Shown here in pieces: positions 271-39,089 of a DNA stretch of 42,287 nucleotides (its first letter is position 1; each line of letters opens with the position of its first letter). The stretch is from Lachnospiraceae bacterium (GTDB taxonomy: Bacteria > Bacillota > Clostridia > Lachnospirales > Lachnospiraceae). The DNA lies in contig JAIKXN010000242.1 in assembly GCA_024684055.1 (NCBI GenBank), positions 1 through 42,287 of the forward strand, given 5' to 3'. Below the pieces are notes generated by a model. That model was not told where the DNA came from, ran no database searches, and saw only the letters and a program-made list of their open reading frames with translations. A program made the position numbers and the translations under genes.

Positions 271-300
271 GCCTGACAGATAAATGTCGGGCACTTTTAT
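271..300 (+). terminator. Intrinsic terminator of rnpB
   Basis: An 8-bp perfect stem GCCTGACA / TGTCGGGC (with one G-T wobble) surrounds a 6-base loop and is followed by a T-rich run. It lies directly after the RNase P RNA and just before the ABC transporter gene. An ATG within the loop opens the ABC reading frame but is not the translation start. Confidence 0.8.
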
Positions 301-325
301 TATATATTGCCCAAAGGATCAGGCT

Positions 326-5828: not shown

Positions 5829-5830
5829 TC

Positions 5831-6400: not shown

Positions 6401-6513
6401 TTTTTAAGGATATGCAATTAAGGATGATTTTTTAAGTTTTAACTTACTGCAGGCGCTTGAACCTGCTGAAGATGCGTTAACAATTAGTACAGGAAAAAGA
6501 GGTTACACACAAC

Positions 6514-15640: not shown

Positions 15641-17842
15641 ATGAACATTTTATTAATCGGAGGCTGCGGAAGCCTCATTAACAACCTAATTGTTAAGTTC
15701 AAAAAGGAAGGGCACAGAGTTTATCTTATAACGGGCAAACGTTATTCTAACGATCCTTATCAGAGGGTTTTCGAAAAGTATAATTTCCCTTATGAAGCTT
15801 CATGTCTGAAAGAAATATTTGAAAGTGTAAGACCGGATATTACCATATATCTGGGTGCTTTTGATACCAATTATAAATGGGATAACGAAGAAGCGGAAGC
15901 TGTTCATTATTCCTCAGGTCTCATGAATATTCTGATGAGTTTTACGACAAACGATTCGGGAAGATTCATTTATTTATCCAGTGATGAAGTCTTCGGTCTC
16001 GGCCTTGACAGAGATATTACCGAATACGACGATAAGACAAGCGTAACTGTTAAAGGCATGGTTCTCGCTCAGGCTGAGGAAATGTGCGAGTCTTATAAAA
16101 TCTATAAGGGAATCGATATCATTACCTTAAGAATGGACCATTTATTTACATTCCCCAAGAAGAGAAGCGAAGCGATGGACATCTGCACTCAGATGTGTCT
16201 TACGGCACTTGAAGACGCAACCATTACCATTAATCCGGAAAATGTTCATTCGCTTTTATATGAATCGGATGCTGTTCAGTTTATATTCAACGTGGCAAAA
16301 TCTCCGAGCCACACATACAGTCTTTACAATATTTCATCACAGCAGGAAATCACCGAAAAGGAACTTGCGGATATTATCGTTGAGCATATGCATTCTCCGG
16401 TTGTTATCGTTAACAGGGATGGCGCTCCGATAAGAAGAGTGCTTTCGGGAAAACTGTTCGAAAGAGAATTCGGAAGCAATACAGTCTGCGATCTCGACAA
16501 GGTAATTCAGAAGATTACCGCGTACATGCAGAAGAACAGATATGTATTTTTAAACGATCTTGACAAGAAACCGCCTTTTTACAAAATCATTCTCGACAAG
16601 GCGGGCTGGTTTATCCATGCGATCATTCCTTTCATGGAAAACCTCGTGGCATTCATTCCTTTCTTTATGTTAAATAACAGAGCGGTAGGTTCGCAGTATT
16701 TTGCGAATCTTGATTTCTATCTGCTTTATGTTCTTCTTTTTGCCATAGTTTACGGTCAGCAGCAGGCTATTTTCTCGGCTGTTCTGGCTGTTATCGGATA
16801 TATTTTCCGACAGATGTACGACAAAACGGGATTTGAAGTTCTTCTTGATTCCAATACATACGTATGGATAGCGCAGCTTTTCATCATAGGAATGGCTGTC
16901 GGTTATTTGCGTGACCAAATCAAGAAATTAAGAAAAGAGAGCGTTGACGAAAGAGATTTCCTGTCGCTCCAGCTTCGCGATATCCGTGATATCAATACAA
17001 CAAACGTAAGAGTTAAAGATGCGCTTGAAACACAGATTGTAAACCAGAACGATTCAATGGGCAAGATTTACAAGATTACTTCAAGACTGGATCAGTACTC
17101 GCCCGAAGAAGTTCTTTTCTACGGCGCCGAAATGGTTTCGTCCCTTGTAAAGAGCAAGGATGTTGCAATTTACGTTGTTTCCAATTCACAGTATGCACGT
17201 CTTTTCTCAGCAACGAGCGAGAAAGCAAGAACAATGGGCAATTCCTTAAGATATAAGGAAACAGGCGAATTATACGACAGCATTGGAAACAAGGAAGTAT
17301 ATATCAACAGAAAACTTGATGACGAATTCCCCATGATGGCAAACGCCATTTATGACGATGAAGACAAGATCCAGATCATTGTAATGGTATGGACGATGCC
17401 CTGGGAAAACATGACACTCGGTGAAGCCAACCAGCTTGTTATCATCAGTGCCCTTATCAAGAACGCCATCATCAGATCCAGCCGTTATCTCGATGCTCTC
17501 GCAGAAAAGAGATATCTTGAAGATACAAGAATTCTTAACAAGGAAGCATTTAAAGACCTTACCAATGCATATCTTAATGCCGAAAGAGAAGGGCTTGCAG
17601 AATGCGTTCTTTTGAGGATCAATGCAGATGCGAGCGAATTCGTTTCACTCGGAAACAGACTGGAAAAATTACTCAGAGAATCCGATATTATGGGTATTTA
17701 CGAAGATGACAGGCTTTACATCCTTCTTTCGAATACCAAGAAAGAGGATTCAAGATTTGCGATAGAAAGAATTACCGGCAACGGTATCGACTGTGAATAT
17801 GTGGAGGATGGCGTAAGATGTCTTCGTTCGGACGCGACGTAG
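15641..17842 (+). CDS. pelD: PelD-like c-di-GMP receptor fused to an SDR/epimerase-like domain
   Basis: A 733-aa fusion. Residues 1-280 form an SDR/NAD-epimerase-like domain starting MNILLIGGCGS; its glycine motif is loose and no clear YxxxK pair was found, so it may bind rather than convert a nucleotide sugar. Three to four membrane helices follow (about 320-430), then a short coiled coil, a GAF domain (about 470-600) and a degenerate GGDEF domain (about 625-733). The GGDEF site reads EDDRL (688-692), so no cyclase activity is expected, but the inhibitory-site RxxD is present as RESD (679-682), exactly five residues before it. In Pseudomonas PelD this site binds c-di-GMP and switches on polymer synthesis. 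Overlaps the next gene by 25 bases. Confidence 0.85.
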   Translation: MNILLIGGCGSLINNLIVKFKKEGHRVYLITGKRYSNDPYQRVFEKYNFPYEASCLKEIFESVRPDITIYLGAFDTNYKWDNEEAEAVHYSSGLMNILMSFTTNDSGRFIYLSSDEVFGLGLDRDITEYDDKTSVTVKGMVLAQAEEMCESYKIYKGIDIITLRMDHLFTFPKKRSEAMDICTQMCLTALEDATITINPENVHSLLYESDAVQFIFNVAKSPSHTYSLYNISSQQEITEKELADIIVEHMHSPVVIVNRDGAPIRRVLSGKLFEREFGSNTVCDLDKVIQKITAYMQKNRYVFLNDLDKKPPFYKIILDKAGWFIHAIIPFMENLVAFIPFFMLNNRAVGSQYFANLDFYLLYVLLFAIVYGQQQAIFSAVLAVIGYIFRQMYDKTGFEVLLDSNTYVWIAQLFIIGMAVGYLRDQIKKLRKESVDERDFLSLQLRDIRDINTTNVRVKDALETQIVNQNDSMGKIYKITSRLDQYSPEEVLFYGAEMVSSLVKSKDVAIYVVSNSQYARLFSATSEKARTMGNSLRYKETGELYDSIGNKEVYINRKLDDEFPMMANAIYDDEDKIQIIVMVWTMPWENMTLGEANQLVIISALIKNAIIRSSRYLDALAEKRYLEDTRILNKEAFKDLTNAYLNAEREGLAECVLLRINADASEFVSLGNRLEKLLRESDIMGIYEDDRLYILLSNTKKEDSRFAIERITGNGIDCEYVEDGVRCLRSDAT

Positions 17843-18771
17843 TGGCTTTTATCATCCTCATGGTGATAAATACCGCGGTTTCCGTCATTTATTATCTTTT
17901 AAACAAATTAATATTTAACAAGAATACCGAAGATGAAAAAGAAGATCACGAAAACAAGCACGGCCTCGAGATAAGACTTATTGTAATGATTCTCGTGCCC
18001 GTTGCAGGTCCTCTGTTTTTCATCGGTTCATGGATAATATATAGAATATTCTTTTCCGAAGAAGTCGACCTCGAAGACGTTGTGTTCAGCAAGGACAAAG
18101 TCAAATTCAATGTCCGTGCTGAGGAAGAGAAAGAAAGAAACCTTACTTCTCTTGAAGAAGCGGTTGAGATTACGGATAAGAGAGAACTCAGAACTCTTAT
18201 GATGACTGTTGTTAGCGGCGACATCAAAAAATTCCTTTCTTCGATCAACTTCGCACTCTCAAGCGATGATTCGGAAACGGCGCATTATGCGGCTTCCGTT
18301 CTTCAGGACGCTCTGAACGATTTCAGAGTAAATGTTGCAAAACAGTACAAGAAGATGAGAGAAGATGAAGACAACAAAGCAATCTATGCCGAAGGTCTTA
18401 CCAAATACATGAACGTTATCCTTGCACAGAAAGTTTTCATCGATATGGAACAGAGAGAATACGTCAGCAGACTCGATGAAGTATCCGATATAGTTTTTGA
18501 AGAAGCCAGAGAGAGACTAAACGACGAGGATATGGAACAGGTGGCCCTGAGGCTTCTTGAAATAGACGAGTATGAAAAGTGCGAGAAATGGTCCGACAGA
18601 ATCAAAATGGTCTATCCCGAAGCGCTTTCAGCCTATACATGCAAGCTCAAACTTCTTTTCAAAATGGAAAGAAAAGACGAATTTTTCGAAACCATTGAGG
18701 AACTTAAGTCCTCTTCGATAGTCATAGACAAGGAAACGCTTGAACTTATAAGAGTTTTCCGGAAGGAATAA
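17818..18771 (+). CDS. pelE: PelE-like membrane protein
   Basis: A 317-aa protein with two N-terminal membrane helices (about 8-32 and 49-74) and a charged, entirely helical C-terminal part that may consist of TPR-like repeats. Size, layout and position between PelD and the PelA-position gene match PelE, which in the Pel machinery binds PelD and PelG. The start codon lies inside the end of pelD (25-base overlap in another frame), so expression is coupled. The family assignment depends mostly on context, since PelE sequences diverge strongly. Confidence 0.7.
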   Translation: MSSFGRDVVAFIILMVINTAVSVIYYLLNKLIFNKNTEDEKEDHENKHGLEIRLIVMILVPVAGPLFFIGSWIIYRIFFSEEVDLEDVVFSKDKVKFNVRAEEEKERNLTSLEEAVEITDKRELRTLMMTVVSGDIKKFLSSINFALSSDDSETAHYAASVLQDALNDFRVNVAKQYKKMREDEDNKAIYAEGLTKYMNVILAQKVFIDMEQREYVSRLDEVSDIVFEEARERLNDEDMEQVALRLLEIDEYEKCEKWSDRIKMVYPEALSAYTCKLKLLFKMERKDEFFETIEELKSSSIVIDKETLELIRVFRKE

Positions 18772-18774
18772 TAA

Positions 18775-20574
18775 ATGGTATCAAGAAGAAACCTGGTTAC
18801 GATTCTTCTTATGATGATAACCGTATTTTTCATGTTTCAGTTTACGCAGGTCATCAAAGTCAGAGGCAATCAGTATGATACAAATGAATATGCAAAGGAA
18901 GTAATTCAGACCGCGGACAAGGAATATGTTCCCTCTTCGGAAGATGACACGATCGTATTCCTCGGGAAAACGGGCACGGAAGTTTACGATACCGTTGAAG
19001 AATGGTGCAGATACTCGAAAAGAAATCTTAAGGTGTACGATAATGCGGACATCAAAGATAACTTAAAGGGTTCTCATCTTATCCTTATCGATTCGAATAC
19101 GACGGACATTGTAAAAGATCAGATTAAGATTATGGCTCTTTCCGATTACAAGATTCCCATTGTATTTTTAAATCTTCCGGAAGTTAAGAAGATAAGATAC
19201 GAATACAAATTCAGGGAAATGCTCGGAATCACCAAGGTTAAGGATGATGAAGTGGAAGCAAAAGGCTTTCAGGCATTTGGCGGATTTCTTTTGGGCGGCG
19301 AGGCGGCTTACATGCCTCAGAAAAAAGAGGAAGAAAAATACAACGACTTTGACTGCAATATCCCCTGGTATGAAACAGGTGCGGGAACAAAAACCTACGT
19401 AGTTGCCATGATGGATGAAAGAAGAGTCAAGGCAAATGATTTTCCCAAACTCTTATGGAGAAACAATTATAACGGAACTTTTGTCTTCGTCGTTGCAACT
19501 GATGTGATCAACAAAGATACCGGAATGGGATTCTTGAGCGCCATCGATTATTCGGCTTACGATTACAGTCTTTATCCTGTCGTGAATGCACAGAATTTCG
19601 TTCTTTCCGATTATCCGGTAATAGCGAATGAAAATGATGAAAAGATCGAACAGATTTACAGCATGGATGCGATGAGTCTTTCAAGAGACATTACATGGCC
19701 GTTTTATCTGTCGCTTTCATCGAGATACAAAATGAAACTCACCTGCTTTGTAAATACGGGATACAACTATCCGAATGCGGGCGAGGCTTCCAGAGATTAT
19801 CTTTCGTTCTATCTTCAGCAGGTAAAGGAAATCAACGGTGAGTTCGGACGAAGTCTTAATCTTAATGAATTTGACAAAGAGTTCGGAAACAAGATGGCGG
19901 CCGATGAGCATTTCTTCGAAGATCTGAACGATTATCATTACTCCGCAGCCTACATAAACAGACTTGAGGATAAAGCGGTGAACATGATAAAGGAAGACGG
20001 CACTTTACTCAGAAGAATACACACCGTCGTAAGTCAGAGAGAAGATAACGACGATTTACTCGGTTACCTTGATGATACGGTCACGATCCAGAAGATCACA
20101 AACGTGGCCGACGAATATTCATACAGAAAAGAACTGCGTCACAGATGCATGCTTACATCCATCGGATATGCGTCGACGCTTGTTGATATGCACAAAGTCC
20201 TTTATCCCGAAAAAACATCGGATGAATGGCAGATGTTTTCAAAAGACGTATCATCTTACATCGATACGTTCTGGACGAGAAACGATGAGTTTGAATACAC
20301 CGCGGTTTCGGAAAGCGATACGAGAGTAAGAAATTTCCTTAATCTTGATTATAACGAAGAGAGAAACGGTGATACTCTGGTAATAAACTTAACGGGAACG
20401 GATGATGCGTATTTCGTTTTAAGAACTCACGATGAAGATATTGTAAATGTCGAAGGCGGAGATTTTACAAATCTTGAAAATAACGTTTTCATGATTCACG
20501 CGGTATCGGATACCGTAACGGTTAATTTCAGTGAATCCAAAAAAGTATTAAAGTATGACGGCTTGCTTAAATAG
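18775..20574 (+). CDS. Membrane-anchored extracytoplasmic protein in the PelA position (DUF2194-like)
   Basis: A 599-aa protein with an N-terminal signal anchor (about 6-24) and a long outer domain. The middle (about 210-470) has features of a barrel-type polysaccharide deacetylase or hydrolase: MAMMDERR-like and TCFVNTGYNYPN segments and MDAMSLSRDITWP. I compare it with DUF2194 proteins, which accompany Pel genes in Gram-positive bacteria and are thought to process the polymer as PelA does. I cannot confirm a metal-binding His/Asp set by eye. It starts 3 bases after pelE with GGAAGGA as ribosome binding site, and pelF follows after 23 bases. Function: probable Pel-polymer modification, inferred from context. 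Confidence 0.65.
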   Translation: MVSRRNLVTILLMMITVFFMFQFTQVIKVRGNQYDTNEYAKEVIQTADKEYVPSSEDDTIVFLGKTGTEVYDTVEEWCRYSKRNLKVYDNADIKDNLKGSHLILIDSNTTDIVKDQIKIMALSDYKIPIVFLNLPEVKKIRYEYKFREMLGITKVKDDEVEAKGFQAFGGFLLGGEAAYMPQKKEEEKYNDFDCNIPWYETGAGTKTYVVAMMDERRVKANDFPKLLWRNNYNGTFVFVVATDVINKDTGMGFLSAIDYSAYDYSLYPVVNAQNFVLSDYPVIANENDEKIEQIYSMDAMSLSRDITWPFYLSLSSRYKMKLTCFVNTGYNYPNAGEASRDYLSFYLQQVKEINGEFGRSLNLNEFDKEFGNKMAADEHFFEDLNDYHYSAAYINRLEDKAVNMIKEDGTLLRRIHTVVSQREDNDDLLGYLDDTVTIQKITNVADEYSYRKELRHRCMLTSIGYASTLVDMHKVLYPEKTSDEWQMFSKDVSSYIDTFWTRNDEFEYTAVSESDTRVRNFLNLDYNEERNGDTLVINLTGTDDAYFVLRTHDEDIVNVEGGDFTNLENNVFMIHAVSDTVTVNFSESKKVLKYDGLLK

Positions 20575-20597: not shown

Positions 20598-22019
20598 ATG
20601 AGAATCTGTATTGTTGCCGAGGGATGCTACCCCTACGTGGTTGGTGGTGTTTCAGGCTGGATTAACAGTATGATAAAGTCATTTCCCGAACATGAATTTG
20701 TGGTACTGTCCATAATATCGGACAGGTCGTTGAGCGGGAAATTCAAGTATGAACTTCCGGAAAACGTTTCGGAGGTTTACGAGGCTTATCTTGACGACTT
20801 TGACTGGGGCAACAGACCGAAGGAAGGAAGAAGAACTTATCTTTCCGCGAGACAGTACAAGGCTTTAAGAAGCATAATTTTTAACTACGATCCCGAGTGG
20901 AATGCAATATTCGATCTTTTCCAGAGAAGCAATATTTCCATTGATGATATTCTGATGGGAGCTGACTTCTTAAACATTGTTAAGGAATACTACGACAAGA
21001 ACTTTTCACAGATAGTTTTTTCGGATTTCCTCTGGACTATGAGATCGATCTATCTGCCTTTGTTCCTGATTCTTAAAACAAATATTCCCGACGCGGATGT
21101 TTATCACTGTGTGGCTACGGGATATGCCGGACTTCTCGGAAGTATGGCGAAATATATTTACAATTCGAAACTCATTGTTTCCGAACACGGTATCTATACA
21201 AGAGAACGTGAAGAAGAACTTTTAAAGGCTTCCTGGGTTGGAGGCATCTACAAGAAGATCTGGATAGAGCAGTTCAAAAAGATGTCACAGCTTGCATATG
21301 ACAAGGCGGATATCGTAACGGCTCTTTATCCGCATGCGAGAGAACTTCAGATAGATTTAGGATGCGACAGCAGAAAAATCGAAATCACTCCGAACGGGAT
21401 CGAAGTCGAAAGATTTGAGGATATACCCGGCAAGACTGAAGAAGATGAAGAGTTCATCAATGTCGGAGCGATAGTCAGAGTGGCACCGATCAAAGACATA
21501 AAGACAATGATACGTGCTTTTGCTTTTGCCAAAAAGGAAGTTCCCAATCTTAAACTCTGGATCATGGGACCCACGGAAGAGGAAGAAGAGTACGCAAAAG
21601 AGTGTTTTGAACTTGTAGACGTAATGGAAATAAGAGATGTTGTATTTACCGGAAAAGTAGATGTTACGGAATACATCGGAAGAATGGATTTTACGCTTCT
21701 TACCAGTATAAGCGAGGGCCAGCCCTTAACCATCCTTGAAAGCTTCGCTGCAAAGAAACCGGTTATCGCAACCGATGTGGGTAACTGCCGCGATTTAATA
21801 TACGGAGTCGGCTTTGATGAATTCGGTACGGCAGGAGTTCTCTGTCATATCATGCACATCGAAGAAATCGCTCATGCGATGACTGAACTTGCTCTCGTTG
21901 AAGAGAAGAGAGAAGCAATGGGAGAAGCCGGTTACAAGAGAGTCTGTGCAGAGTACAGAGTCGAAATGATGAAAGATAAATACGAAGAAATATACGAAGG
22001 CATTCGTTTAAGCATGTAA
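20598..22019 (+). CDS. pelF: Pel polysaccharide glycosyltransferase PelF (GT4)
   Basis: A 473-aa retaining glycosyltransferase of family GT4 with the PelF-specific N-terminal part. MRICIVAEGCYPYVVGGVSGW is the PelF signature opening. SEHGIYTRERE (His about 197) and the EX7E motif (Glu 373 and 381, in SEGQPLTILE) are the donor-site landmarks of GT4 enzymes. In Pseudomonas PelF uses UDP-GalNAc/GlcNAc to build the Pel backbone in the cytoplasm. The length is usual for PelF. It sits directly before pelG, as in all known Pel clusters, which makes the assignment secure; the donor sugar in this organism is not known. Confidence 0.94.
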   Translation: MRICIVAEGCYPYVVGGVSGWINSMIKSFPEHEFVVLSIISDRSLSGKFKYELPENVSEVYEAYLDDFDWGNRPKEGRRTYLSARQYKALRSIIFNYDPEWNAIFDLFQRSNISIDDILMGADFLNIVKEYYDKNFSQIVFSDFLWTMRSIYLPLFLILKTNIPDADVYHCVATGYAGLLGSMAKYIYNSKLIVSEHGIYTREREEELLKASWVGGIYKKIWIEQFKKMSQLAYDKADIVTALYPHARELQIDLGCDSRKIEITPNGIEVERFEDIPGKTEEDEEFINVGAIVRVAPIKDIKTMIRAFAFAKKEVPNLKLWIMGPTEEEEEYAKECFELVDVMEIRDVVFTGKVDVTEYIGRMDFTLLTSISEGQPLTILESFAAKKPVIATDVGNCRDLIYGVGFDEFGTAGVLCHIMHIEEIAHAMTELALVEEKREAMGEAGYKRVCAEYRVEMMKDKYEEIYEGIRLSM

Positions 22020-22044: not shown

Positions 22045-23514
22045 TTGGCCGGAATAGGTGTCAGATTAAACAGAATATACAACAAGAATACGATTACGAC
22101 CAATGTATTCGGTTTCGGTTACAGTACGGTCATTACCGTTGCTCCGATGTTTCTGGTTATCCTGGCCGTAATGCTGATGCAGTATCTTCTCGGCTTTTCC
22201 AAACTCGGATATGCGTCGAGAGAATTGTATGCATCAACGGTTCTTTATATTTTCATATTTGCGCTTCTTTCCGCATCGCCCTTTAACGCGGTATTGTCAA
22301 AGTACATGTCTGACGTTATTTACTGGGAAACATATGAAGATATCATGCCCTGTTTCCATATAGGACTTGTAATGAACGTAATAATCAGTTCCATCCTCGG
22401 AATTCCTTTTGTTATCAGAGAGTATTTTGTCGGACAGGTTGCGCTTCCTTTTGTTCTTGCCGGATATTTGGGATACATGACGCTTGTGCTTGTTTTCTAC
22501 ACAATGCTTTATCTGTCAATCTGCAAGGACTACAAGAAGATTTCATACTATTTCCTCTGGGGAATGGGACTGACCGTAATACTTTCGCTTATTCTTGTAA
22601 AGCTTTTCAAAGTTGAATGCACTTTTGCGATGCTTGTTTCGCTCGATGCGGGATTTATGCTGATAGCGATACTTGAGTTTGCAAAGGTAAGAAGCTACTT
22701 CAGAACCAATTCCGGAAAGTACAAGGAAGTGCTTTTGTATTTCAAAAAATACTGGCAGCTCGTTATTACGAACTTCCTTTATACTCTGGGACTTTACATT
22801 CACAACTTTGTTTTCTGGACAACGGATATGCGCATCGTTGTTGTTAAATGTTTCGTCAGCATGATGAGTTACGACATGGCCACATGTCTTGCAATGTTCA
22901 CGAATATCTCCGCAACGGTTATCTTTATTTCGAGAGTGGAAATGTATTTCCATGAAAGATACAAACTTTATTCGGAGGCTGTAATCGGCGGAAGAAAAAT
23001 GGATATTGAAGAGTCAAAACACAGAATGTTTTCACAGCTTTCGGAAGAACTATTGAACCTCGTCAGAATTCAGTTTATCGTATCGGTTGTTGTTTTCCTT
23101 CTGGCGGTAATTTTCCTTCCGAGATTCGGATACGGCGGACTTGTAATGCAGATTTATCCCTGCCTTGCAGCCGGCTACTTCATCCTCTTTGTGATGTATG
23201 CGGAAATCATTTTTCTTTACTACTACAATGATTTTGACGGCGCTCTTATAACCGCACTTGTCTTCTGTGCAGCAACGGTTATCGGCGCATGGTTTTCGAC
23301 CTTCCTTTCACCCATCTGGTACGGAACAGGTCTTGTGATCGGATCGACTATCGGATTCATCACGGCTTATTTCAGGATAAGACACATAGAGAGAACACTC
23401 GATATACATATTTTCTGCAAGGGAAGTCTTATGAAGAAAGGTGAGGGCAAAAAGCCTTCGAATCTTGTTTATACAAATCCTGCTTATGCAAAGAAAAAAG
23501 GAGGAGAAAAATGA
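22045..23514 (+). CDS. pelG: Pel polysaccharide exporter PelG (MOP/flippase-like)
   Basis: A 489-aa polytopic membrane protein with about 12 helices, the PelG family, thought to carry the growing Pel chain over the membrane with PelD and PelE. Translation starts at a TTG: the product then begins MAGIGVRLNRIY, which matches the usual PelG N-terminus MAGIGF; GGAAAGGCGGA precedes it by 8-9 bases. The phrase FGFGYSTVITVAPMF in the first helix is typical. The stop overlaps the next gene by 4 bases. A cytoplasmic tail rich in Lys ends the protein. Confidence 0.93.
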   Translation: MAGIGVRLNRIYNKNTITTNVFGFGYSTVITVAPMFLVILAVMLMQYLLGFSKLGYASRELYASTVLYIFIFALLSASPFNAVLSKYMSDVIYWETYEDIMPCFHIGLVMNVIISSILGIPFVIREYFVGQVALPFVLAGYLGYMTLVLVFYTMLYLSICKDYKKISYYFLWGMGLTVILSLILVKLFKVECTFAMLVSLDAGFMLIAILEFAKVRSYFRTNSGKYKEVLLYFKKYWQLVITNFLYTLGLYIHNFVFWTTDMRIVVVKCFVSMMSYDMATCLAMFTNISATVIFISRVEMYFHERYKLYSEAVIGGRKMDIEESKHRMFSQLSEELLNLVRIQFIVSVVVFLLAVIFLPRFGYGGLVMQIYPCLAAGYFILFVMYAEIIFLYYYNDFDGALITALVFCAATVIGAWFSTFLSPIWYGTGLVIGSTIGFITAYFRIRHIERTLDIHIFCKGSLMKKGEGKKPSNLVYTNPAYAKKKGGEK

Positions 23515-29638: not shown

Positions 29639-30823
29639 ATGGGAAAGACGGAAGCTAATACACAATCAAATAATGACGAGCTTCTTTTATCCAAAGACGA
29701 AGAATTATTTCTTCGTCTCGTTTCTGCTTATTGCCATGATGAAAAGGCACTGGATGAAATATCTTTAAGTAACGAAGAAAAAGAATCGATAAAGGATTTA
29801 TGCGCAAGACACAATCTTTCGCATGTCTTTCTTAACAAGGAAAATGCCTACGGGACAGTCATAAAGTATTACAGACTTCTTTTTGCTTCGGCGGACATTT
29901 CAAAAATATTATCTGAAAACGGAATCGGATGCATAGTTTTAAAAGGATGTGCGACTTCGGTATTTTACAAAGTCCCTGAAATGAGGAAAAGCGGGGATGT
30001 CGATATCCTGCTTGAAGATCCAGGAAAAATTGACGAAGCAGTTAAAATTCTTTATGCAAACTGTTTTACCAAAAGCGAAGAGCAGCACGCGAATCATCAT
30101 GTGGTCTTAAACGGACACGGCATTAATCTTGAGATTCACACAATGCTCGTCGAACCTTTTGATGACAATTTCATAAACAGATATATAAAAGATCTTTTAG
30201 GTGAAATAAAAGAAAGAAAAATAAAAAGAATCGTCTGCGGTGTGGAAATTCCGACACTTGAGGACGATCTGCATGCATACGAACTGATACTTCATATGCT
30301 TCAGCATTATCTTCGTGAAGGTTTTGGAATAAGGCTTCTTTGCGACTGGACTCTTTTTTGGAACAGGGAAGTGGATGAAAAACATAAGAGTCTTTATCTG
30401 AAACTTGTTAGCGAAAGCAGGATAAAGGGCTTTTCGGATATGGTTACGAAATGCTGTATCGAATATCTCGGACTTGACGAAGATAAAGTCGGGTGGATGG
30501 ACATTGAAAAAGACCTGGATACTTCTTTGTTCATAAAGGATATTCTTTCGGCAGGCGATTTCGGCAATGCGGAAAAAGGCAGAATGGTTTCATTAAGAGG
30601 CACAAAGCCTTCCGATTATATTCGAGAGTTTCATCATCAGATGCATTTGAACTTTCCGAAGGCGGGCAGAGTATTTATCATATGGCCGGTTTTGTGGCTG
30701 ATAACTTATATAAGGTTTGAGAGAAACAACAGGAATATAAGAAAGGTAAATGCAAGCGAAATATTTGCGAGTGCCAGGGAAAGATCGAAGATAGTTCAGA
30801 GTATGCATATATTTATCAGGTAG
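29639..30823 (+). CDS. Nucleotidyltransferase family protein (NTP_transf_5)
   Basis: A 394-aa protein with the hallmark LKG (Lys102-Gly103) followed by YKVPEMRKSGDVDILL, giving the metal-binding pair GD-x-D (Asp120, Asp122). This is the PF14907-type nucleotidyltransferase. Such proteins occur in RiPP clusters (some lasso-peptide sets with an HPr-kinase-like enzyme) and in polysaccharide clusters; their substrate is mostly unknown. The C-terminal part is helical. The ribosome binding site is weak. Its presence here, 8 kb before a PqqD-HPr-kinase gene, gives two readings: glycan tailoring or peptide tailoring. The sequence does not decide. Confidence 0.85.
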   Translation: MGKTEANTQSNNDELLLSKDEELFLRLVSAYCHDEKALDEISLSNEEKESIKDLCARHNLSHVFLNKENAYGTVIKYYRLLFASADISKILSENGIGCIVLKGCATSVFYKVPEMRKSGDVDILLEDPGKIDEAVKILYANCFTKSEEQHANHHVVLNGHGINLEIHTMLVEPFDDNFINRYIKDLLGEIKERKIKRIVCGVEIPTLEDDLHAYELILHMLQHYLREGFGIRLLCDWTLFWNREVDEKHKSLYLKLVSESRIKGFSDMVTKCCIEYLGLDEDKVGWMDIEKDLDTSLFIKDILSAGDFGNAEKGRMVSLRGTKPSDYIREFHHQMHLNFPKAGRVFIIWPVLWLITYIRFERNNRNIRKVNASEIFASARERSKIVQSMHIFIR

Positions 30824-33052: not shown

Positions 33053-33082
33053 TTGACTTAAAAATATGTAATAAGCTATAAT
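33053..33082 (+). promoter_or_regulatory. Strong promoter of the leader-bearing 154-aa protein
   Basis: TTGACT at 33053-33058 and TATAAT at 33077-33082 with an 18-base spacer, one of the best promoters in the window. With a good ribosome binding site and a tight terminator downstream, it makes a one-gene transcript expected to be abundant. Confidence 0.82.
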
Positions 33083-33138
33083 ATTTCAAAGTGGGTAGTT
33101 TGTATTTGGTTTAATTTAGGAGAGTGAAAGGAAAATTT

Positions 33139-33603
33139 ATGAAAAATTATGAAAAACCTATGGTTTTATCAAATGAAGAACTGGCTGAAGGCGTATATGC
33201 CGCAAGCGGCAATGAAGGGGTATGCTGGACCATCAGTTATGTTGTGTCTCAGGAATGGAACGGCACAGGTAAGGTGTATGAATTACACGGAAAACATTCC
33301 GATACCGTAAAGCACTGGTCAAAGGGTACTGTAGTTACAATCGAATTCTTAAATCCCAGCAGCAATCCGTTAGTTGTAAGTGCTGAGAACAACATCAATT
33401 ATACAGTTGCCGTTACAGGTAATGTTGCCAAGATTACAAGAAATCTCGGAGCTGATTCATATAAGTCCGGAGATGAATTTACTTATAAGGTATTTGTGTT
33501 TGCAGGATCTGAAACAGCATCAAAGCTTGTATCTATTCAGCATATTTCGATATCCTGTATGATTACTTCAAATGTTCAGGGTGAAGGCGGAGACGGAACC
33601 TGA
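33139..33603 (+). CDS. Leader-bearing small protein, candidate substrate of the adjacent ABC exporter
   Basis: A 154-aa protein. Residues 1-24 look like a leader: hydrophilic, Glu-rich, ending in EGVYAASG (17-24), without a hydrophobic core, so it is not a Sec signal peptide. I recall similar openings on small proteins of other Lachnospiraceae, but this cannot be checked here. The rest is beta-rich with two cysteines, one near each end (Cys29 and Cys140), and Trp30, 40 and 60, an arrangement like a small disulfide-closed carbohydrate-binding or pilin-like fold. The C-terminus is Gly/Asp-rich. Start at ATG 33139, with AAAGGA 6 bases upstream; the in-frame GTG at 33124 would overlap the ribosome binding region. 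Own promoter and terminator; an ABC exporter follows. Function unknown. Confidence 0.8.
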   Translation: MKNYEKPMVLSNEELAEGVYAASGNEGVCWTISYVVSQEWNGTGKVYELHGKHSDTVKHWSKGTVVTIEFLNPSSNPLVVSAENNINYTVAVTGNVAKITRNLGADSYKSGDEFTYKVFVFAGSETASKLVSIQHISISCMITSNVQGEGGDGT

Positions 33604-33624
33604 TCGAAATTGAATAAAAAATTT

Positions 33625-33649
33625 AAAACAGCCTTCGGGCTGTTTTTTT
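33625..33649 (+). terminator. Terminator after the leader-bearing protein gene
   Basis: A perfect stem AAAACAGCC / GGCTGTTTT closed by the very stable TTCG tetraloop and running into seven T. A textbook intrinsic terminator, isolating the upstream gene from the ABC exporter gene. Confidence 0.95.
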
Positions 33650-33676
33650 ATGTTCGGAAAACGAAGCGTTCTTTTA

Positions 33677-33705
33677 TTGTTTATACTTTCAATAAATAGT
33701 ATAAT
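33677..33705 (+). promoter_or_regulatory. Promoter of the ABC exporter gene
   Basis: TTGTTT at 33677-33682 and TATAAT at 33700-33705, 17-base spacer. The ATG follows 28 bases later. Confidence 0.65.
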
Positions 33706-33733
33706 TAACGAAGTGTGATTCAGGGAAAAGAGT

Positions 33734-35524
33734 ATGAAGGATTCGAACAGCGGAATAAAATTTTATATTCGACGTATTCGTGAAGGCCGCCTCAAAGAAA
33801 TGTGGAGGCAGATTAAATGGATTTACGGCTACGGCAAACATTACTGGCTTCAGATTATACTCTATACGCTTCTGGGGCTGGTTAATATAGGCTTATCCCT
33901 TCTGTCGGGACTTGTTTCCAAGGATCTCGTTGATATTATTACAGGACATCAGACAGGAGCTGTAATAAGTTATTTTGTAATGATGATCGTTTATAATGTG
34001 ACGTCGATGATTCTAAATCAGATTGCACAGTATGTATCAACGTATTTAAAGATAAAAGTCGATAATGAAATAAAAGCTGATATATTCGGAAAAATACTTG
34101 TCACGGACTGGGAATCGCTGACTTCGTATCATACGGGAGATTTGCTTACAAGATGGAGCGGTGATGTAAGTGTGGTTTCCGGAGGCATACTTAATTTCGT
34201 TCCGGACATGATACTTTATTTTGTAAGATTTGTTGCCGCGTTTGCAATGGTAATCTATTTCGATCCTTCCTTTGCATTCTTTGCTTTTCTGGGACTTCCG
34301 ATATCCTTTATTCTTTCGAGAACACTTCTCAAAAAAATGGTGGGCAATAATGAAAAATCGGCAGCCATGAATGCAAAAATGTCAGGTTTTAATCAGGAAG
34401 CTTTTTCCAATATTCAGATGATCAAATCATTTGACCTGGCGAAACTGTATATACAGAGACTTAAGGAGATTCAGAAAGAATACCTCGGAATGAGACTGTC
34501 GTTCCAGAGAATGTCTATTGTAACCTCGGTTTTGTTTTCAACGATAGCGCTGCTTGTTTCTTATTCGTCATACGGCTGGGGAATTTACAGAGTGTGGAGC
34601 AATGCTATTTCATACGGTACCATGACAATGTTTCTCGGGCTTTCGGGTTCGCTTACCGGTTCGCTTAACAATCTTACGTCTCTGTTTCCGACCGTTATCG
34701 GACTGACTACTTCGGCAGGACGTCTTATGGATATTGTCGAAATGCCGCAGGAAGATTATTCCAATGATGACGTAGCGCTGGAGTTCCTTAACAAGTACAG
34801 AAATGAAGGTATCAGCCTTAAGATAGACGAGATAGATTTCAAATATAAAACAGGCACTGAAAATGTTTTTGAAAGTGCATCAATGATTGCCCGTCCTCAT
34901 GAGACGGTTGCACTTGTAGGTCCTTCGGGAGAAGGAAAAACCACAATGTTAAGAATTCTTTTGTCGCTTATTTTCGCACAAAGCGGTAATTCGGTTCTTT
35001 TTAACGGAAGCGATGAAGAGAATTGCAAAGAAAAGATTAAACTCGATCCTTCGGCGAGAAAAATGTTTTCGTATGTACCCCAGGGCAATTCGATGGTTTC
35101 AGGTACGATTGCGTATAACATGAGAATGGTTAAGCCTGATGCCACGGATGAGGAAATCATAGAAGCACTAAAACTTGCATGCGCGTGGGATTTCGTTGAG
35201 AAATTACCCAAAGGAATAGAAAGCGAGATTAAGGAAAGAGGCGGAGGATTTTCCGAAGGCCAGGCGCAGAGACTTTCGATAGCGCGTGCGCTTATAAGAA
35301 GGTCGCCGATTCTTCTTCTTGATGAAGCGACATCGGCACTTGATGTTAAAACGGAAAGAAAGCTTCTTAAAAACATCATGAAGGATGATTATCCGAGAAC
35401 CCTTATTGTTACAACACACAGACCTACGGTACTTACCATATGTAACAGGGTGTACGAGATAAAAGACAAGAAACTTACGGTACTCGATGATATAGAAATC
35501 GACAAGCTTATCAGAGATTTCTAA
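33734..35524 (+). CDS. ABC exporter, fused membrane and ATP-binding domains
   Basis: A 596-aa half-transporter, probably a homodimer. Six membrane helices (about 35-330) are followed by the ATPase domain: Walker A GPSGEGKTT (396-404), signature SEGQ (507-510, the variant of SGGQ with Glu in place of the first Gly), Walker B LLLDEATSALD with Glu531, and H-loop His562. There is no peptidase C39 domain, so any leader removal must come from a separate protease. It lies between the leader-bearing protein and, 1.4 kb further on, a Ser/His peptidase gene. Substrate unknown; export of the 154-aa protein is the simplest guess. The last residues (about 570-596) are an acidic, basic mixed tail. Confidence 0.9.
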   Translation: MKDSNSGIKFYIRRIREGRLKEMWRQIKWIYGYGKHYWLQIILYTLLGLVNIGLSLLSGLVSKDLVDIITGHQTGAVISYFVMMIVYNVTSMILNQIAQYVSTYLKIKVDNEIKADIFGKILVTDWESLTSYHTGDLLTRWSGDVSVVSGGILNFVPDMILYFVRFVAAFAMVIYFDPSFAFFAFLGLPISFILSRTLLKKMVGNNEKSAAMNAKMSGFNQEAFSNIQMIKSFDLAKLYIQRLKEIQKEYLGMRLSFQRMSIVTSVLFSTIALLVSYSSYGWGIYRVWSNAISYGTMTMFLGLSGSLTGSLNNLTSLFPTVIGLTTSAGRLMDIVEMPQEDYSNDDVALEFLNKYRNEGISLKIDEIDFKYKTGTENVFESASMIARPHETVALVGPSGEGKTTMLRILLSLIFAQSGNSVLFNGSDEENCKEKIKLDPSARKMFSYVPQGNSMVSGTIAYNMRMVKPDATDEEIIEALKLACAWDFVEKLPKGIESEIKERGGGFSEGQAQRLSIARALIRRSPILLLDEATSALDVKTERKLLKNIMKDDYPRTLIVTTHRPTVLTICNRVYEIKDKKLTVLDDIEIDKLIRDF

Positions 35525-35551
35525 AAAAATATATAAATGGAAGTGACAGAA

Positions 35552-36925
35552 ATGAGCGAACAGAAGAGTATACAGAAAAAAGAAGGTTTTGGAAGTAAGT
35601 TGGGATTTATTTTTGCGGCTGCAGGTTCTGCGGTAGGACTCGGAAATATCTGGAGATTCCCTTATCTGGCAGCAAAATACGGCGGCGGAATTTTCCTTTT
35701 GGTTTACATAATATTGGCAGTAACTTTTGGCTTCTCTCTTATGATAACCGAGATCGGAATAGGCAGAAAGACCGGAAAATCCGTTATCGGAGCTTATAAA
35801 GATGTTGATAAAAGATTTGCATTTCTGGGCCCTGTGGCTGCAGTGGTACCTTTTATCATTACACCTTATTACTGCGTGATCGGCGGCTGGGTACTTAAAT
35901 ATCTTTTTGAATTCATAAGGGGAAACGGAAGAAATGTAGCAGATGAAGGCGATTTCTTTACAGGCTTTATTTCCGGATGGCAGAAGCCTTCGATTTTCTT
36001 TATCGTTTTTGCACTTCTTACAGCGCTTGTAGTTGTTCTCGGAGTACAGAAAGGAATTGAGGGAATCAGCAAGATCCTTATGCCCGTTCTTATCGTGCTT
36101 ATTATAGGAATTGCAGTTTATACTATGACTATTCCCGGTGCGCTTGCAGGTGCAAAATATTATATTCTTCCTAATTTTGAGGGATTTACATTTACGACTT
36201 TTCTTAAGACTCTGGTAGCGGCCATGGGACAGCTCTTTTATTCTATGTCGCTTGCCATGGGTATTATGGTTACATACGGTTCTTACATGAGAAAAGAGGA
36301 CTCGCTTGAAGGTTCTGTAAGACAGATAGAGATTTTCGATACGGCAGTTGCTTTTCTTGCAGGTCTTATCATAGTTCCCGCGGTATTTGCTTTCAGCGGT
36401 GGAAATCCCGAAGCATTAAACAAAGGACCGAGTCTTATGTTTATTACGCTTCCTAATGTATTTCAGACAATGAAGGGCGGACAGATAGTCGGAGCATTCT
36501 TTTTCTTCCTGGTTGCCCTTGCGGCGCTGACATCATCCATATCGCTTCTTGAAACGATTGTTTCGATCGTGAGCGAGAAGACAAAATTAAACAGATTTAT
36601 CAGTACGATAATCTGCTTTGCTTTTGTGGTCATAATCGGAATGACTTCGGTATTCGGTTACAGCATCTGGGATAAAGTTACGATTTTCGGATATCAGTTC
36701 CTGGACTTCTATGACTTCATTTCGAACAATGTGATCATGCCTGTCGTATCGCTTATCACATGTATTCTCATAGGCTATTTTGCCAAGACCAAATATATTG
36801 AAGATGAAGTTCTTCACGGCGAAAAGAAATTCTCTGCAAGGGGACTTTACAAGGTTATGATTCTTGCAATCTGCCCCATCTGCATGATAGTGATTCTTAT
36901 AAGCAATTTCTTCCTGAGTCTGTAA
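35552..36925 (+). CDS. Sodium-dependent transporter of the neurotransmitter:sodium symporter family
   Basis: A 457-aa polytopic protein with about 11-12 helices. The first helix AAAGSAVGLGNIWRFPYLAA holds the sodium and substrate site conserved from LeuT to animal transporters; 11-helix bacterial forms such as TnaT and MhsT import tryptophan or other hydrophobic amino acids. The start at 35552 is preferred to ATG 35537 because GGAAGTG lies 6 bases before it. It starts 27 bases after the ABC exporter and may share its transcript. Whether it belongs to the peptide system or is a simple amino-acid importer is undecided; the latter is more likely. Confidence 0.93.
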   Translation: MSEQKSIQKKEGFGSKLGFIFAAAGSAVGLGNIWRFPYLAAKYGGGIFLLVYIILAVTFGFSLMITEIGIGRKTGKSVIGAYKDVDKRFAFLGPVAAVVPFIITPYYCVIGGWVLKYLFEFIRGNGRNVADEGDFFTGFISGWQKPSIFFIVFALLTALVVVLGVQKGIEGISKILMPVLIVLIIGIAVYTMTIPGALAGAKYYILPNFEGFTFTTFLKTLVAAMGQLFYSMSLAMGIMVTYGSYMRKEDSLEGSVRQIEIFDTAVAFLAGLIIVPAVFAFSGGNPEALNKGPSLMFITLPNVFQTMKGGQIVGAFFFFLVALAALTSSISLLETIVSIVSEKTKLNRFISTIICFAFVVIIGMTSVFGYSIWDKVTIFGYQFLDFYDFISNNVIMPVVSLITCILIGYFAKTKYIEDEVLHGEKKFSARGLYKVMILAICPICMIVILISNFFLSL

Positions 36926-36942
36926 TTAAACGGACTCGGGAC
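36912..36942. terminator. Hairpin between convergent genes
   Basis: TCCTGAGTCTGT and ACGGACTCGGGA form a 12-bp stem with two G-T pairs around AATTAA, overlapping the stop codon of the transporter gene. No T run follows on either strand, so it may be a weak or factor-assisted bidirectional terminator. Confidence 0.5.
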
Positions 36943-36954
36943 AGGATGATCGGT

Positions 36955-37407
36955 TTACGATTTGTTGCCTGTTTTCAGTTTGTGAATGAAGTTACTGATT
37001 TTTTCTCTGTCGGGAAGAAGGAAGAGCCATACTTTCCATGACAGGATATAAAAAGGATTATGAACGCTGAAATAGATTTTCTTTTTGTAAAAGCCGGTCA
37101 TGATGCCGTATACCTGATAGAGTGAAATCGGTCCTTCGATTTCCGACTGGTTATCGCCGACAAAATAAAGTTTTGATCCGTTTACTCTGAAGACTCTGTG
37201 AAGAACCTGTTTGCCGGATTTTCTTCGAAATAAAAGAACATCACCGCGACGTATATTATGGTTTTTAAGCGGTGATATAACCACCTCGTCTTTTTCGGGA
37301 ATTATCAGGGGGTACATGCTGTATCCCTGCAGATGTATCCGAACACTCTTTCCGGAGGCGAGAACATCGTCAATTTTAATTTTCTCAAAAAGATTATTAT
37401 CTATCAT
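36955..37407 (-). CDS. S24/S26-type peptidase (Ser/His signal-peptidase-like)
   Basis: A 150-aa protein of the S24/S26 peptidase type. GYSMYPLI gives the nucleophile Ser30; VLHRVFRV gives His70, the position where bacterial signal peptidases have Lys and the SEC11/SipW branch has His; FVGDNQ gives Asp85. A hydrophobic stretch near the C-terminus (about 118-132) may anchor it. It lacks an N-terminal anchor, unlike normal signal peptidase I, so the catalytic part may be cytoplasmic. Such stand-alone forms are found beside ABC exporters and PqqD/HPr-kinase genes, suggesting a role in leader removal (inference). The start was moved to ATG 37407, because GGGAAG lies just upstream and would overlap the longer start (TTG 37419). 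Minus strand, divergent from the PqqD-kinase gene. Confidence 0.85.
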   Translation of the reverse strand: MIDNNLFEKIKIDDVLASGKSVRIHLQGYSMYPLIIPEKDEVVISPLKNHNIRRGDVLLFRRKSGKQVLHRVFRVNGSKLYFVGDNQSEIEGPISLYQVYGIMTGFYKKKIYFSVHNPFYILSWKVWLFLLPDREKISNFIHKLKTGNKS

Positions 37408-37444
37408 TATTCTTCCCAATTCTACTTATTACAGATCAATGACA

Positions 37445-37476
37445 TTGTAGCATTTTTAAAGGCCCGATGCTATAAT
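37445..37476 (+). promoter_or_regulatory. Extended -10 promoter of the PqqD-kinase gene
   Basis: TGCTATAAT at 37468-37476 is a perfect -10 with extended TG; TTGTAG at 37445 is a poor -35 with a 20-base spacer. The ATG at 37501 follows with GGAG 6 bases upstream. Confidence 0.6.
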
Positions 37477-37500
37477 TAAAGCGTAAATACGGAGATTTTT

Positions 37501-38685
37501 ATGAAGAGAAACAATTCGTTTTATATAAAAAACATAGCCGGAAAAAAGTACATTGTTCCATATGCGCAGATGCTGGCGGACATGTTCTCGGGAGTTAAGA
37601 TCAATGAAACCGGAGAGTATATCTGGAACCTGCTTGAAAAGGATAAGGAAAAAGATGAGCTGATCGAAAAGTGCTGCGAGTATTATGAAACTTCGGGAGA
37701 TGAATGCGAGACAGTAAAAAAAGATGTTTCGGAATTTATCAAAATGCTTTTCTCATACGGGATGATCATAAACGGCAAAATGTTCTCAGAGAAAAATGAT
37801 CTGATAAAGCGTATTTCGATCGCAGGCATCAAAATCGGATTATACGGAGACGGCGAATGTTTAAGAGATGATTTCGATGCTTTTGAAATAAAAAGAAGCG
37901 ACGATGAAAATAAAGCGGATTGCGGAGGAGATGATTTAAGAATTGAAATCCTTCATTCCTTAAGTCCCGTATATGAAAACGGCAGGGAAATAATCAGAAA
38001 CGCAGTTGTCGATACGGTTGAATGCGAGGACAGATATGTTCTAACCTTTTCGGAATCCGACGAAATAATCGAATGCCAGATCAACAAAGAAGGAACACTC
38101 GCAAAAATTTATACACAAAGCAATTTGAGCGATGAAGGAAAAGAGATTCTGTTTCACGCAATAAGACATGTATTCTTGTACAGGGCACTGATGGAAGGAA
38201 TTCCTGCAGTTCATTCGGTTTCGATATTGTATAACAACAAGGCATGGCTTTTTTCGGCATCATCAGGAACCGGCAAATCCACGCATGCTGAACTCTGGAA
38301 AAAGCTCTACGCAACGGAATTCATAAACGGAGATCTAAATCTTATCGGATGTTCAAATAATAAGGCTTATATATATGGATTGCCATGGTGTGGCACAAGC
38401 GGAATCTGCAATACCGGGAAATATGAAATCGGCGGAATCTTTCTATTAAGAAGAAGCGAAAGAAATTACGTTGAGGAATTAAGCGAAGACGAAAAAAGAT
38501 TGCTTGTTCAGCAAAGGATTGTTTCTCCTTCGTGGAATACAGACCTCGTTGACAGACAGTTTGAAACAGTCGATGCCGTATGCGATAAAATAATGACGGC
38601 CAGACTGTACTGCACAAAAGACGACGAAGCAGCCAAGGTGCTAAAGGAATATATTGATACAAAGAGTCAGACCGAAGCCGTATAA
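37501..38685 (+). CDS. PqqD domain fused to HPr-kinase-like domain
   Basis: A 394-aa fusion. Residues 1-95 look like PqqD: INETGEYIWNLLEKD, then ELIEKCCEYY and FIKMLFSYGMI. Residues 100-215 are a variable linker domain. Residues 230-370 are an HPr kinase/phosphorylase-like ATPase: AVHSVSI, P-loop SASSGTGKST (252-261), INGDLNLIG and GLPWCGTSGI. In paeninodin-type lasso clusters a kinase of this fold phosphorylates a serine of the precursor peptide, and PqqD domains bind leaders. One protein with both modules is thus well suited to recognise and phosphorylate a peptide; the target is not known. Own promoter. Its last 15 codons are tandemly duplicated after the stop (see 38638-38730). Confidence 0.88.
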   Translation: MKRNNSFYIKNIAGKKYIVPYAQMLADMFSGVKINETGEYIWNLLEKDKEKDELIEKCCEYYETSGDECETVKKDVSEFIKMLFSYGMIINGKMFSEKNDLIKRISIAGIKIGLYGDGECLRDDFDAFEIKRSDDENKADCGGDDLRIEILHSLSPVYENGREIIRNAVVDTVECEDRYVLTFSESDEIIECQINKEGTLAKIYTQSNLSDEGKEILFHAIRHVFLYRALMEGIPAVHSVSILYNNKAWLFSASSGTGKSTHAELWKKLYATEFINGDLNLIGCSNNKAYIYGLPWCGTSGICNTGKYEIGGIFLLRRSERNYVEELSEDEKRLLVQQRIVSPSWNTDLVDRQFETVDAVCDKIMTARLYCTKDDEAAKVLKEYIDTKSQTEAV

Positions 38686-38730
38686 GTGCAAAAGACATAT
38701 ATGGATAAAAAGAGTCAGGATGAAGCATAA
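38638..38730 (+). repeat. Tandem duplication of the 3' end of the PqqD-kinase gene
   Basis: The last 16 codons (38638-38685, encoding VLKEYIDTKSQTEAV and stop) are followed immediately by a 45-base diverged copy (38686-38730, VQKTYMDKKSQDEA and stop) in the same frame. Eleven of fifteen residues align with identity or close similarity. The second copy is now untranslated unless the first stop is read through. Confidence 0.8.
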
Positions 38731-38766
38731 ACAGTCAGGGAGTCGGAAGACTTCGGTATAACAGTG

Positions 38767-38789
38767 ATTTATATTTTTAAAATATAAAT
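38767..38789. repeat. AT-only perfect palindrome upstream of the 87-aa peptide gene
   Basis: ATTTATATTTT and its exact complement flank a single T. It contains no G or C. It lies 37 bases before the ATG of the small peptide gene and just ahead of its ribosome binding site. It may be an operator, a promoter region or a weak mRNA hairpin. Confidence 0.5.
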
Positions 38790-38825
38790 AAAGTTTCAGA
38801 TGAAATTCAAAAAGGAGGTATCATC

Positions 38826-39089
38826 ATGATAGGTTTAGTTGGTTTGAACTGGTTTAATCAGAACAATACGGTCGGAAGAGATCTTTGGGCTATTACACTC
38901 GCTGAAGGCGGCGGAAATCCTACAATGAAGGTTAATCCTATTTATGTGAAGGAACCCGAAAAGACTGAATCTGACGAAAAGGTTAGTGAGAGTTCGGCGG
39001 AGACTTCCGAAGAGAATAAAAATGTAGGCGCTGCCGAAACTTTTGAAGAAGAATATGATTCGGCCTATGAGACGGAAGGATACGAATAA
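38826..39089 (+). CDS. Small Ser/Thr/Glu-rich peptide, candidate substrate of the PqqD-kinase
   Basis: An 87-aa protein with a near-perfect ribosome binding site AAGGAGGT 7 bases before the ATG, which suggests high expression. Residues 1-41 are mixed hydrophobic/polar with three Trp or Phe clusters (LNWFNQNN, DLWAITLAEGGGN); residues 42-87 are acidic and rich in Ser, Thr, Glu and end in YDSAYETEGYE. There is no cysteine, signal peptide or membrane helix. Position 140 bases after the PqqD-HPr-kinase gene on the same strand, plus the run of serines in the tail, makes it a candidate substrate. No core peptide of a known class is recognisable, so it could also be an unrelated small protein. Confidence 0.65.
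   Translation: MIGLVGLNWFNQNNTVGRDLWAITLAEGGGNPTMKVNPIYVKEPEKTESDEKVSESSAETSEENKNVGAAETFEEEYDSAYETEGYE

Follow-up and report, generated by a model that had tools for sequence, protein, structure and literature searches.

The window analysed here is the whole 42,287-nt stretch of contig JAIKXN010000242.1 of a Lachnospiraceae bacterium (GenBank assembly GCA_024684055.1, positions 1 to 42,287, forward strand). It carries a five-gene cassette, predicted to mature and export a leader-bearing small protein, together with a pel exopolysaccharide operon. The cassette comprises a precursor gene, a fusion of a PqqD-type RiPP recognition element (RRE) with an HprK-like kinase, an S26-type peptidase, an ABC exporter and an NTP_transf_5 nucleotidyltransferase. 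This is the core gene set of the linear polyphosphorylated peptide (LPP) family of ribosomally synthesized and post-translationally modified peptides (RiPPs), published in May 2026 with the lpp genes of Paenibacillus alginolyticus (PMC13381572, cited here for its main text). The set is therefore not of an undescribed kind, as the first-pass annotation of the window had proposed. The cassette features are as follows.

29639..30823, + strand: NTP_transf_5 nucleotidyltransferase, LppN-/PsmN-like (PF14907, E 2.4e-27)
33053..33082, + strand: promoter-like site TTGACT-18-TATAAT upstream of the precursor (pattern match only, 11/12)
33139..33603, + strand: leader-bearing precursor protein, 154 aa (open reading frame (ORF) list; start MKNYEKPMVLSNEELAEGVYAASG)
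33139-33198, + strand: precursor leader, approximately residues 1-20 (YxxP at residues 4-7)
33205-33207: codon of the conserved Ser23 of the precursor, predicted phospho-acceptor (position compared with LPP S3)
33625..33646, + strand: terminator-like hairpin 3' of the precursor (pattern match only)
33734..35524, + strand: ABC exporter, permease and ATPase, LppD-like (Pfam ABC_membrane and ABC_tran)
36955..37419, - strand: S26-type Ser/His peptidase without N-terminal anchor, LppS-like (TIGR02228, E 1.2e-7)
37501..38685, + strand: PqqD (RRE) and HprK-like kinase fusion, corresponding to LppB plus LppK in one chain (PqqD, E 4.9e-11)

The precursor, exporter, peptidase and fusion were already placed correctly in the first-pass annotation. 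Its fifth member, an 87-aa peptide, turned out to be a flanking gene that is kept without the cassette, while the nucleotidyltransferase had been missed and the pel operon, the steady partner of the set, had gone unrecognized. Its general description held up: the genes provide for maturation under the guidance of a leader and for export, they include a kinase, and no cyclase is visible among them. Neither a lasso cyclase (asparagine-synthetase-like) nor a B2 protease was present among the Pfam matches of 30 window proteins, a scan that lies outside the genes at 8455, 12150 and 40514.

As described in the main text of PMC13381572, LPP loci share with the window a SpI/S26-like peptidase, a PqqD-type RRE, an HprK-like kinase, an NTP transferase, an MsbA-like exporter and the lack of a cyclase. 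Precursors with a YxxP leader and a Ser just past it, one to three in each set, and a location in polysaccharide loci are also common to both. What is new relative to the LPP text is the fusion (RRE and kinase are discrete in LPP, as they are in genome G035 and others), the larger cores, two of which were modelled and are CBM2-like by prediction, the Tyr-to-Ser spacing of 19 versus 18, which puts the Ser one residue further, and the tie to pel, with orphan precursor copies on virus records. The leader of the variant ends in EGVYAASG, whereas the LPP motif (YxxPxVLxHQxIxFETxxS) ends in HQxIxFETxxS; YxxPxV and the Ser are common to both. In the genome sets searched, the fused variant was found only in the window's family. 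The LPP main text contains zero mentions of Clostridia, Lachnospir, carbohydrate-binding or pel.

The cassette accompanies a Gram-positive pel operon that starts at 15641; its genes and a DUF4832 accessory are as follows.

15641..17842, + strand: PelD-like protein with an N-terminal short-chain dehydrogenase/reductase (SDR; epimerase) domain, first pel gene (Epimerase, E 9e-14; weak GGDEF)
17818..18771, + strand: PelE-like protein (by place and relatives at the same place; no informative Pfam match)
18775..20574, + strand: PelA-like protein (by place and relatives at the same place; no Pfam match)
20598..22019, + strand: PelF glycosyltransferase (DUF3492, E 5.1e-79)
22045..23514, + strand: PelG exopolysaccharide exporter (PF16933, E 1.3e-141)
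25922-27220: DUF4832 accessory protein

Clostridial pel loci with an SDR domain in PelD and a DUF4832 accessory have been reported (PMC7112168, pel-locus text), and the PelD architecture and DUF4832 accessory of the window agree with them. With the Gram-positive pelDEADAFG loci of that text, including the larger Roseburia cluster, the window shares PelD with SDR, PelF, PelG and the DUF4832 accessory. According to the S7 Fig legend of PMC7112168, NTase and PTase genes adjoin the pel locus of Roseburia, and the extra genes of that cluster are read there as capsule or teichoic acid functions; leader peptides are not mentioned in its pel-locus text.

Recurrence was assessed in 397 genomes of the window's family. 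At E 0.01 the precursor search matched 21 genomes. The match in G276 covers residues 83-144 only and was discarded as spurious; the other 20 are real. In neighbourhoods of up to 20 kb, and in the named relative Eubacterium plexicaudatum ASF492 (L002), which NCBI places in Eubacteriaceae, the exporter, fusion, peptidase, nucleotidyltransferase and pel recurred in changing order and orientation. Of the 93 genomes that a 17-row model of the fusion (A1) matched at E 1e-10, 23 reached at least 290 bits, four scored 204-222 bits and 66 were weaker. Cassette genomes were defined as the 23 matching at 290 bits or more; the four intermediate genomes (G023, G047, G049 and G221, none with PelG) and the 66 weaker ones were excluded. 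The cassette genes co-occur in 20 genera. Every one of the 23 cassette genomes has an exporter relative in the neighbourhood retrieved, the window's own being the query; in G135 this relative lies beside the precursor, not beside the kinase.

Independent genes that happen to be neighbours, with no common pathway, would be in keeping with a window set that is divided among several transcripts, uses both strands and encloses a symporter gene that also stands without the cassette. However, set membership is kept in 20 genera while order and strand are reshuffled, so the co-occurrence is more than chance, and we regard this explanation as extremely improbable. The claim that the genes belong together despite their scattering over transcripts is upheld by the same recurrence; rare co-occurrence in relatives had been named as the outcome that would refute it, and the opposite was observed.

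The cassette was steadily associated with Pel. PelG was present in 70 of the 397 genomes, namely in 22 of the 23 cassette genomes versus 48 of the 374 others (Fisher's test, p = 2.4e-17, a value overstated since the genomes are related). PelG and the fused kinase share one contig in 19 of the 22 genomes, with 8.2-19.0 kb between their starts (median 11.3), and lie on separate contigs of draft assemblies in G025, G240 and G389. G096 is the sole cassette genome without a PelG match. The fused set is an accessory of Pel, because 48 of the 70 PelG genomes lack it.

The other cassette genes followed the kinase. A 24-residue leader model (A8) was run over 80 genomes, comprising the 23 cassette genomes, 30 of the 48 PelG-only genomes and 27 with neither. 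At E 1e-3 it matched 22/23 cassette genomes (36 places, one to three precursor copies per genome) and 0/57 controls. The leader of G096 scores just E 0.0145, its gene sitting between exporter and kinase, and three controls gave marginal matches (E 0.02-0.07) that stop short of Ser-Gly. Of these places, 28/36 are within 10 kb of the kinase and 8/36 beyond. The peptidase model reached at least 160 bits in 21/23 cassette genomes and in 0/23 controls, four of which matched more weakly (up to 107 bits); the nucleotidyltransferase model reached at least 280 bits in 22/23 and in 1/23 (G035), respectively. These counts are partly circular: 16 of the 23 cassette genomes contributed rows to A1 and many contributed rows to A2, A3 and A8, so that their own matches arise by construction. 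Seven cassette genomes gave no A1 row (G012, G094, G096, G135, G240, G389 and G391), and three of these, G094, G096 and G391, were found independently of the precursor search, yet precursors are present in them. In the wider order, 3/196 genomes matched at E 1e-40, all from the window's own family; among 398 genomes of the wider phylum, the full fusion occurred only in the window's own, with kinase-only matches in three others.

The precursor of the window combines a YxxP leader with the motif EGVYAASG. Its Ser23 is the predicted phosphosite and counterpart of LPP core S3, since the Tyr-to-Ser spacing compares with that of LPP as given in the main text (19 versus 18); the leader would be cleaved near residue 20. 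Spacing from [YWF]xxP to Ser is 19 in 35 of 39 leaders of the variant, and 53-138 residues follow the SG motif. Ser-Gly is identical in 17/17 rows of alignment A4, several of which matched mainly via the leader, and is present in all six relatives matched over most of their length (G076, G158, G363, G389, G304 and G029); a count of Ser in 39/39 leaders is biased by a motif search that demanded [SA]G. A C-terminal phosphosite in the style of paeninodin was rejected, the precursor C-termini being variable. Searches of Pfam, NCBIfam and PDB sequences with the precursor gave no informative match. The terminator-like hairpin at 33625-33646 makes it probable that the precursor is transcribed as a single gene. 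The site at 33053-33082 is the top-scoring promoter-like match of the precursor region, where nine such sites were counted versus 17.5 in shuffles, numbers without proof value.

In congeners the same leader precedes a different type of core (L146 4522-4953, L148 10211-10639 and L150 8430-8852). Compared with the window, the pattern looks as if cores had been exchanged.

According to Foldseek, cellulose-binding domains rank first for the two modelled precursors, and some precursor cores, that of the window included, are predicted from these models to form a CBM2-like beta-sandwich. The likeness to CBM2 cellulose- and chitin-binding domains lies in the predicted fold only; the cores gave no CBM2 match in Pfam or in the PDB sequence search. 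One PDB title among the fold matches says CBM2, which we take to be the family of the matched cellulose- and chitin-binding domains.

The fusion combines two LPP functions. Its PqqD half matched PDB profiles of TbiB1 (E 1.6e-5), 9x8z (LppB, E 0.0025) and 9x90 (PbaB1, E 0.0026). The kinase half had no Pfam match, although His238, GxGK and an Asp are kept; His238, Gly256, Gly258, Lys259, Thr261 and Asp278 are invariant among the aligned relatives. Of the kinase features given in the LPP text, the His, GxGK(S/T) and the last Asp are conserved, and GD replaces DD. Leader binding and phosphorylation of the core Ser are the predicted activities of the fusion.

The peptidase probably starts at an ATG at 37407 and has the motifs GxSMxP and LHR, with Ser34, His74 and Asp89 invariant in 17 rows. 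It had no match in Pfam and weak matches below cut-off to TIGR02228 (E 1.2e-7) and TIGR02754 (E 2.9e-5), that is, to archaeal-type signal peptidases and the Ni-superoxide dismutase maturation protease. The likeness to these families consists of S26-type motifs in a small protein, whereas the gene context is different. Its His-to-Asp spacing is unlike the LppS numbering in the LPP main text. The protein is predicted to be the leader peptidase. No peptidase domain was among the Pfam matches of the exporter, and a double-glycine/C39 exporter was rejected, as the Pfam and NCBIfam scans named no such domain. The nucleotidyltransferase has invariant GDxD and ExH motifs (Asp120, Asp122, Glu165 and His167 in the aligned relatives) and, by analogy with related systems, is predicted to act on the phosphorylated precursor. 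PADLOC gave no match for five proteins, and a known defence role was rejected on this ground.

Phosphorylated lasso peptides (paeninodin, pseudomycoidin and Bsf) resemble the set in their HprK-like kinase, RRE, YxxP/WxxP leader, nucleotidyltransferase and ABC exporter and differ from it in that the products of the variant are larger.

Two congeners document an empty site. In G978 and G980 the fusion model (A1) had no match at E 1e-10, and the 20 kb examined there contain none of the cassette genes. Their loci (L144, L145) have the order UvrD-like, PseG-like, NAGPA, symporter, 87-aa relative, membrane protein and RumA-like, the first three being named by by-eye likeness to window proteins. They share the flanks of window 8455-41959 and represent a natural empty site that the symporter gene divides in two: between NAGPA and symporter they lack the 20 kb that hold pel, the nucleotidyltransferase, the precursor and the exporter in the window, and between symporter and 87-aa gene they lack the peptidase and kinase. 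Pel and the cassette are absent together at this site, so both came or went jointly here; the absence of pel holds for this locus only. The flanking genes concerned are the following.

13958-15040, - strand: phosphodiester glycosidase (NAGPA), beside pelD (PF09992, E 1.2e-36)
38826-39089: 87-aa Ser/Glu-rich ORF, a real conserved small gene (relatives in congeners)

Seven of the 18 congeners searched, and none of the 12 genomes from other families, carry a relative of the 87-aa ORF, the first 50-60 residues being the conserved part; the ORF has no YxxP leader. Such a relative directly follows the fused kinase in G983, G984, G988 and G990, and in G985 (L147) the symporter gene separates the two. 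As a second substrate or cassette part the ORF was rejected: G978 and G980 keep it, and the symporter, without the cassette, and both are therefore neighbours, not parts. The symporter gene (35537) and the NAGPA gene, the latter through its look-alike, are present in these flanks although pel and cassette are missing there, and were likewise rejected as parts.

These computed results, i.e., the gene set, its catalytic motifs, the leader family, the co-occurrence with pel and the predicted fold, make it likely that the window encodes a Pel-coupled variant of the LPP pathway, which phosphorylates, trims and exports proteins of the matrix formed with this exopolysaccharide. Homology suggests the steps from leader binding to export. 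The PqqD half would bind the YxxP leader of the small protein, and the HprK-like half would phosphorylate the conserved Ser just past it (Ser23, matching LPP core S3). In the LPP system LppK polyphosphorylates core Ser3, the sole phosphosite, LppS cleaves only together with the RRE protein LppB and not alone, and unphosphorylated precursor is cleaved poorly in cells (PMC13381572, main text). Aided by the PqqD domain, the S26-type peptidase would cleave near residue 20, and the ABC exporter would secrete the mature product. The nucleotidyltransferase may cap the Ser phosphate with a sugar or nucleotide, as reported for PsmN, its nearest precedent. The product would fold as a CBM2-like beta-sandwich, or as a small Cys-rich protein in other species, and act in the Pel matrix; this role and the sugar cap are put forward as conjecture.

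The LPP authors state in the main text that the role of the peptide is unknown and offer a biofilm role as speculation awaiting test. In 20 genera an LPP-type cassette is found together with a single named exopolysaccharide, which suggests a function of the pathway that experiments could probe. With two products predicted to be carbohydrate-binding-like, and with the Pel tie, the question becomes a test of export, tagging and Pel binding.

Several observations weigh against a Pel-coupled LPP variant. Pel does not need the cassette, as the 48 PelG genomes without it demonstrate. The leader lacks the LPP residues HQ and FET, and a cut after Tyr is odd for an S26 enzyme. At the position of the two Asp (DD) of characterised lasso kinases (available text of PMC10368454), the kinase reads GD. 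GD also occurs in several unfused kinases of the group, G035 and L130 among them, and the kinases directly beside FETxxS precursors in L125 and L126 read SDE (Ser-Asp-Glu). LppN had no detectable effect in Bacillus subtilis according to the LPP main text. The Foldseek matches are modest (best E 2.7e-5, TM 0.4-0.6), clathrin-adaptor mu domains are among the top ones, and some precursors are Cys-rich and not CBM-like. In the literature searched, the fused pel-linked variant was not described; the supplements of the LPP paper may hold relatives.

The products might instead be secreted antimicrobial, bacteriocin-like proteins used in competition, with the pel link reflecting a shared surface island only. 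Diverse cores, Cys-rich in some species and differing even between congeners (window versus L146, L148 and L150), would fit such a role, as would the precursor copies on five virus records and the patchy gain and loss that the LPP authors describe as typical for conflict genes (PMC13381572, main text). The presence of pel in 22/23 cassette genomes at short distances argues against it, and so do the many cores of 80-138 residues, two of which were modelled and predicted to be CBM2-like. We consider this explanation unlikely.

Another explanation concerns the nucleotidyltransferase. PsmK and PsmN together place hexoses on the phospho-Ser of a lasso peptide (available text of PMC9266682), the nucleotidyltransferase recurs almost as regularly as the kinase (22/23) and opens the pel gene run in G035, and Ser-Gly is the same throughout A4. 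A phospho-sugar on the conserved Ser-Gly could accordingly begin or anchor the Pel chain, which would make the products protein-polysaccharide conjugates. The many PelG genomes without the cassette and the inactivity of LppN in B. subtilis speak against this, and we regard it as rather improbable. A bolder extension, which we rate as a long shot, is that phospho-glycosylated proteins are covalently joined to Pel via Ser-Gly as a bacterial counterpart of proteoglycans, assembled by the kinase, the nucleotidyltransferase and the Pel synthase, and that large phages exploit the export by bringing leader-tagged cargo of their own.

Precursors with intact leaders were found on five IMG/VR records (L052-L056), two of which are 137 and 146 kb long. 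In L055 the precursor gene (9995-10393) has a head-maturation-protease-like gene on one side and the large terminase on the other; a phage polymerase and an endolysin are encoded on L052. The kinase model matched 0/5 of these records, in a search that had no positive control. The precursor had no match among named phage records, and a degenerate DNA pattern run over viral contigs returned nine stretches, four from virus records already found and five by chance. On the simplest reading, which is conjecture, the virus-borne precursors are cargo relying on the cassette of the host. The variant extends the LPP-type pathway to larger, probably folded proteins and to leader-tagged cargo on virus contigs.

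Unfused sets also occur near pel. G035 carries one in a single co-directional run of ~20 kb (L117 2841 to L118 9034) with the order nucleotidyltransferase, pelD to pelG, PqqD, peptidase, kinase and exporter. Downstream of the run lie two WxxP...NIAASG precursors (L118 11646-11900 and 14301-14585); G035 had served as a control in the leader search, and its WxxP/NIAASG leader type escaped model A8. In G087 the unfused set and pel are ~14 kb apart on one contig (L142, L143), where no precursor was found. The link between an LPP-type set and pel may therefore have arisen on more than one occasion.

L125 (5994-6176) and L126 (13994-14122), which come from a different family of the phylum, carry precursors close to the LPP motif, YVKPMIINETEIQFETLVS and a near copy, with a spacing of 18. 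Leaders with FEVEDIICTSG-like ends and a spacing of 19 were observed in L123 (7596-7766), L129 (1679-1813) and L130 (7981-8097). These small YxxP-type peptides, encoded near HprK-like kinase genes, possibly form a third precursor type.

Elsewhere in the window, two adjacent ABC half-transporter genes (284-3953) lie distant from the cassette, and a pyruvate/indolepyruvate-type ferredoxin oxidoreductase pair with an AMP-binding ligase occupies 4092-7815.

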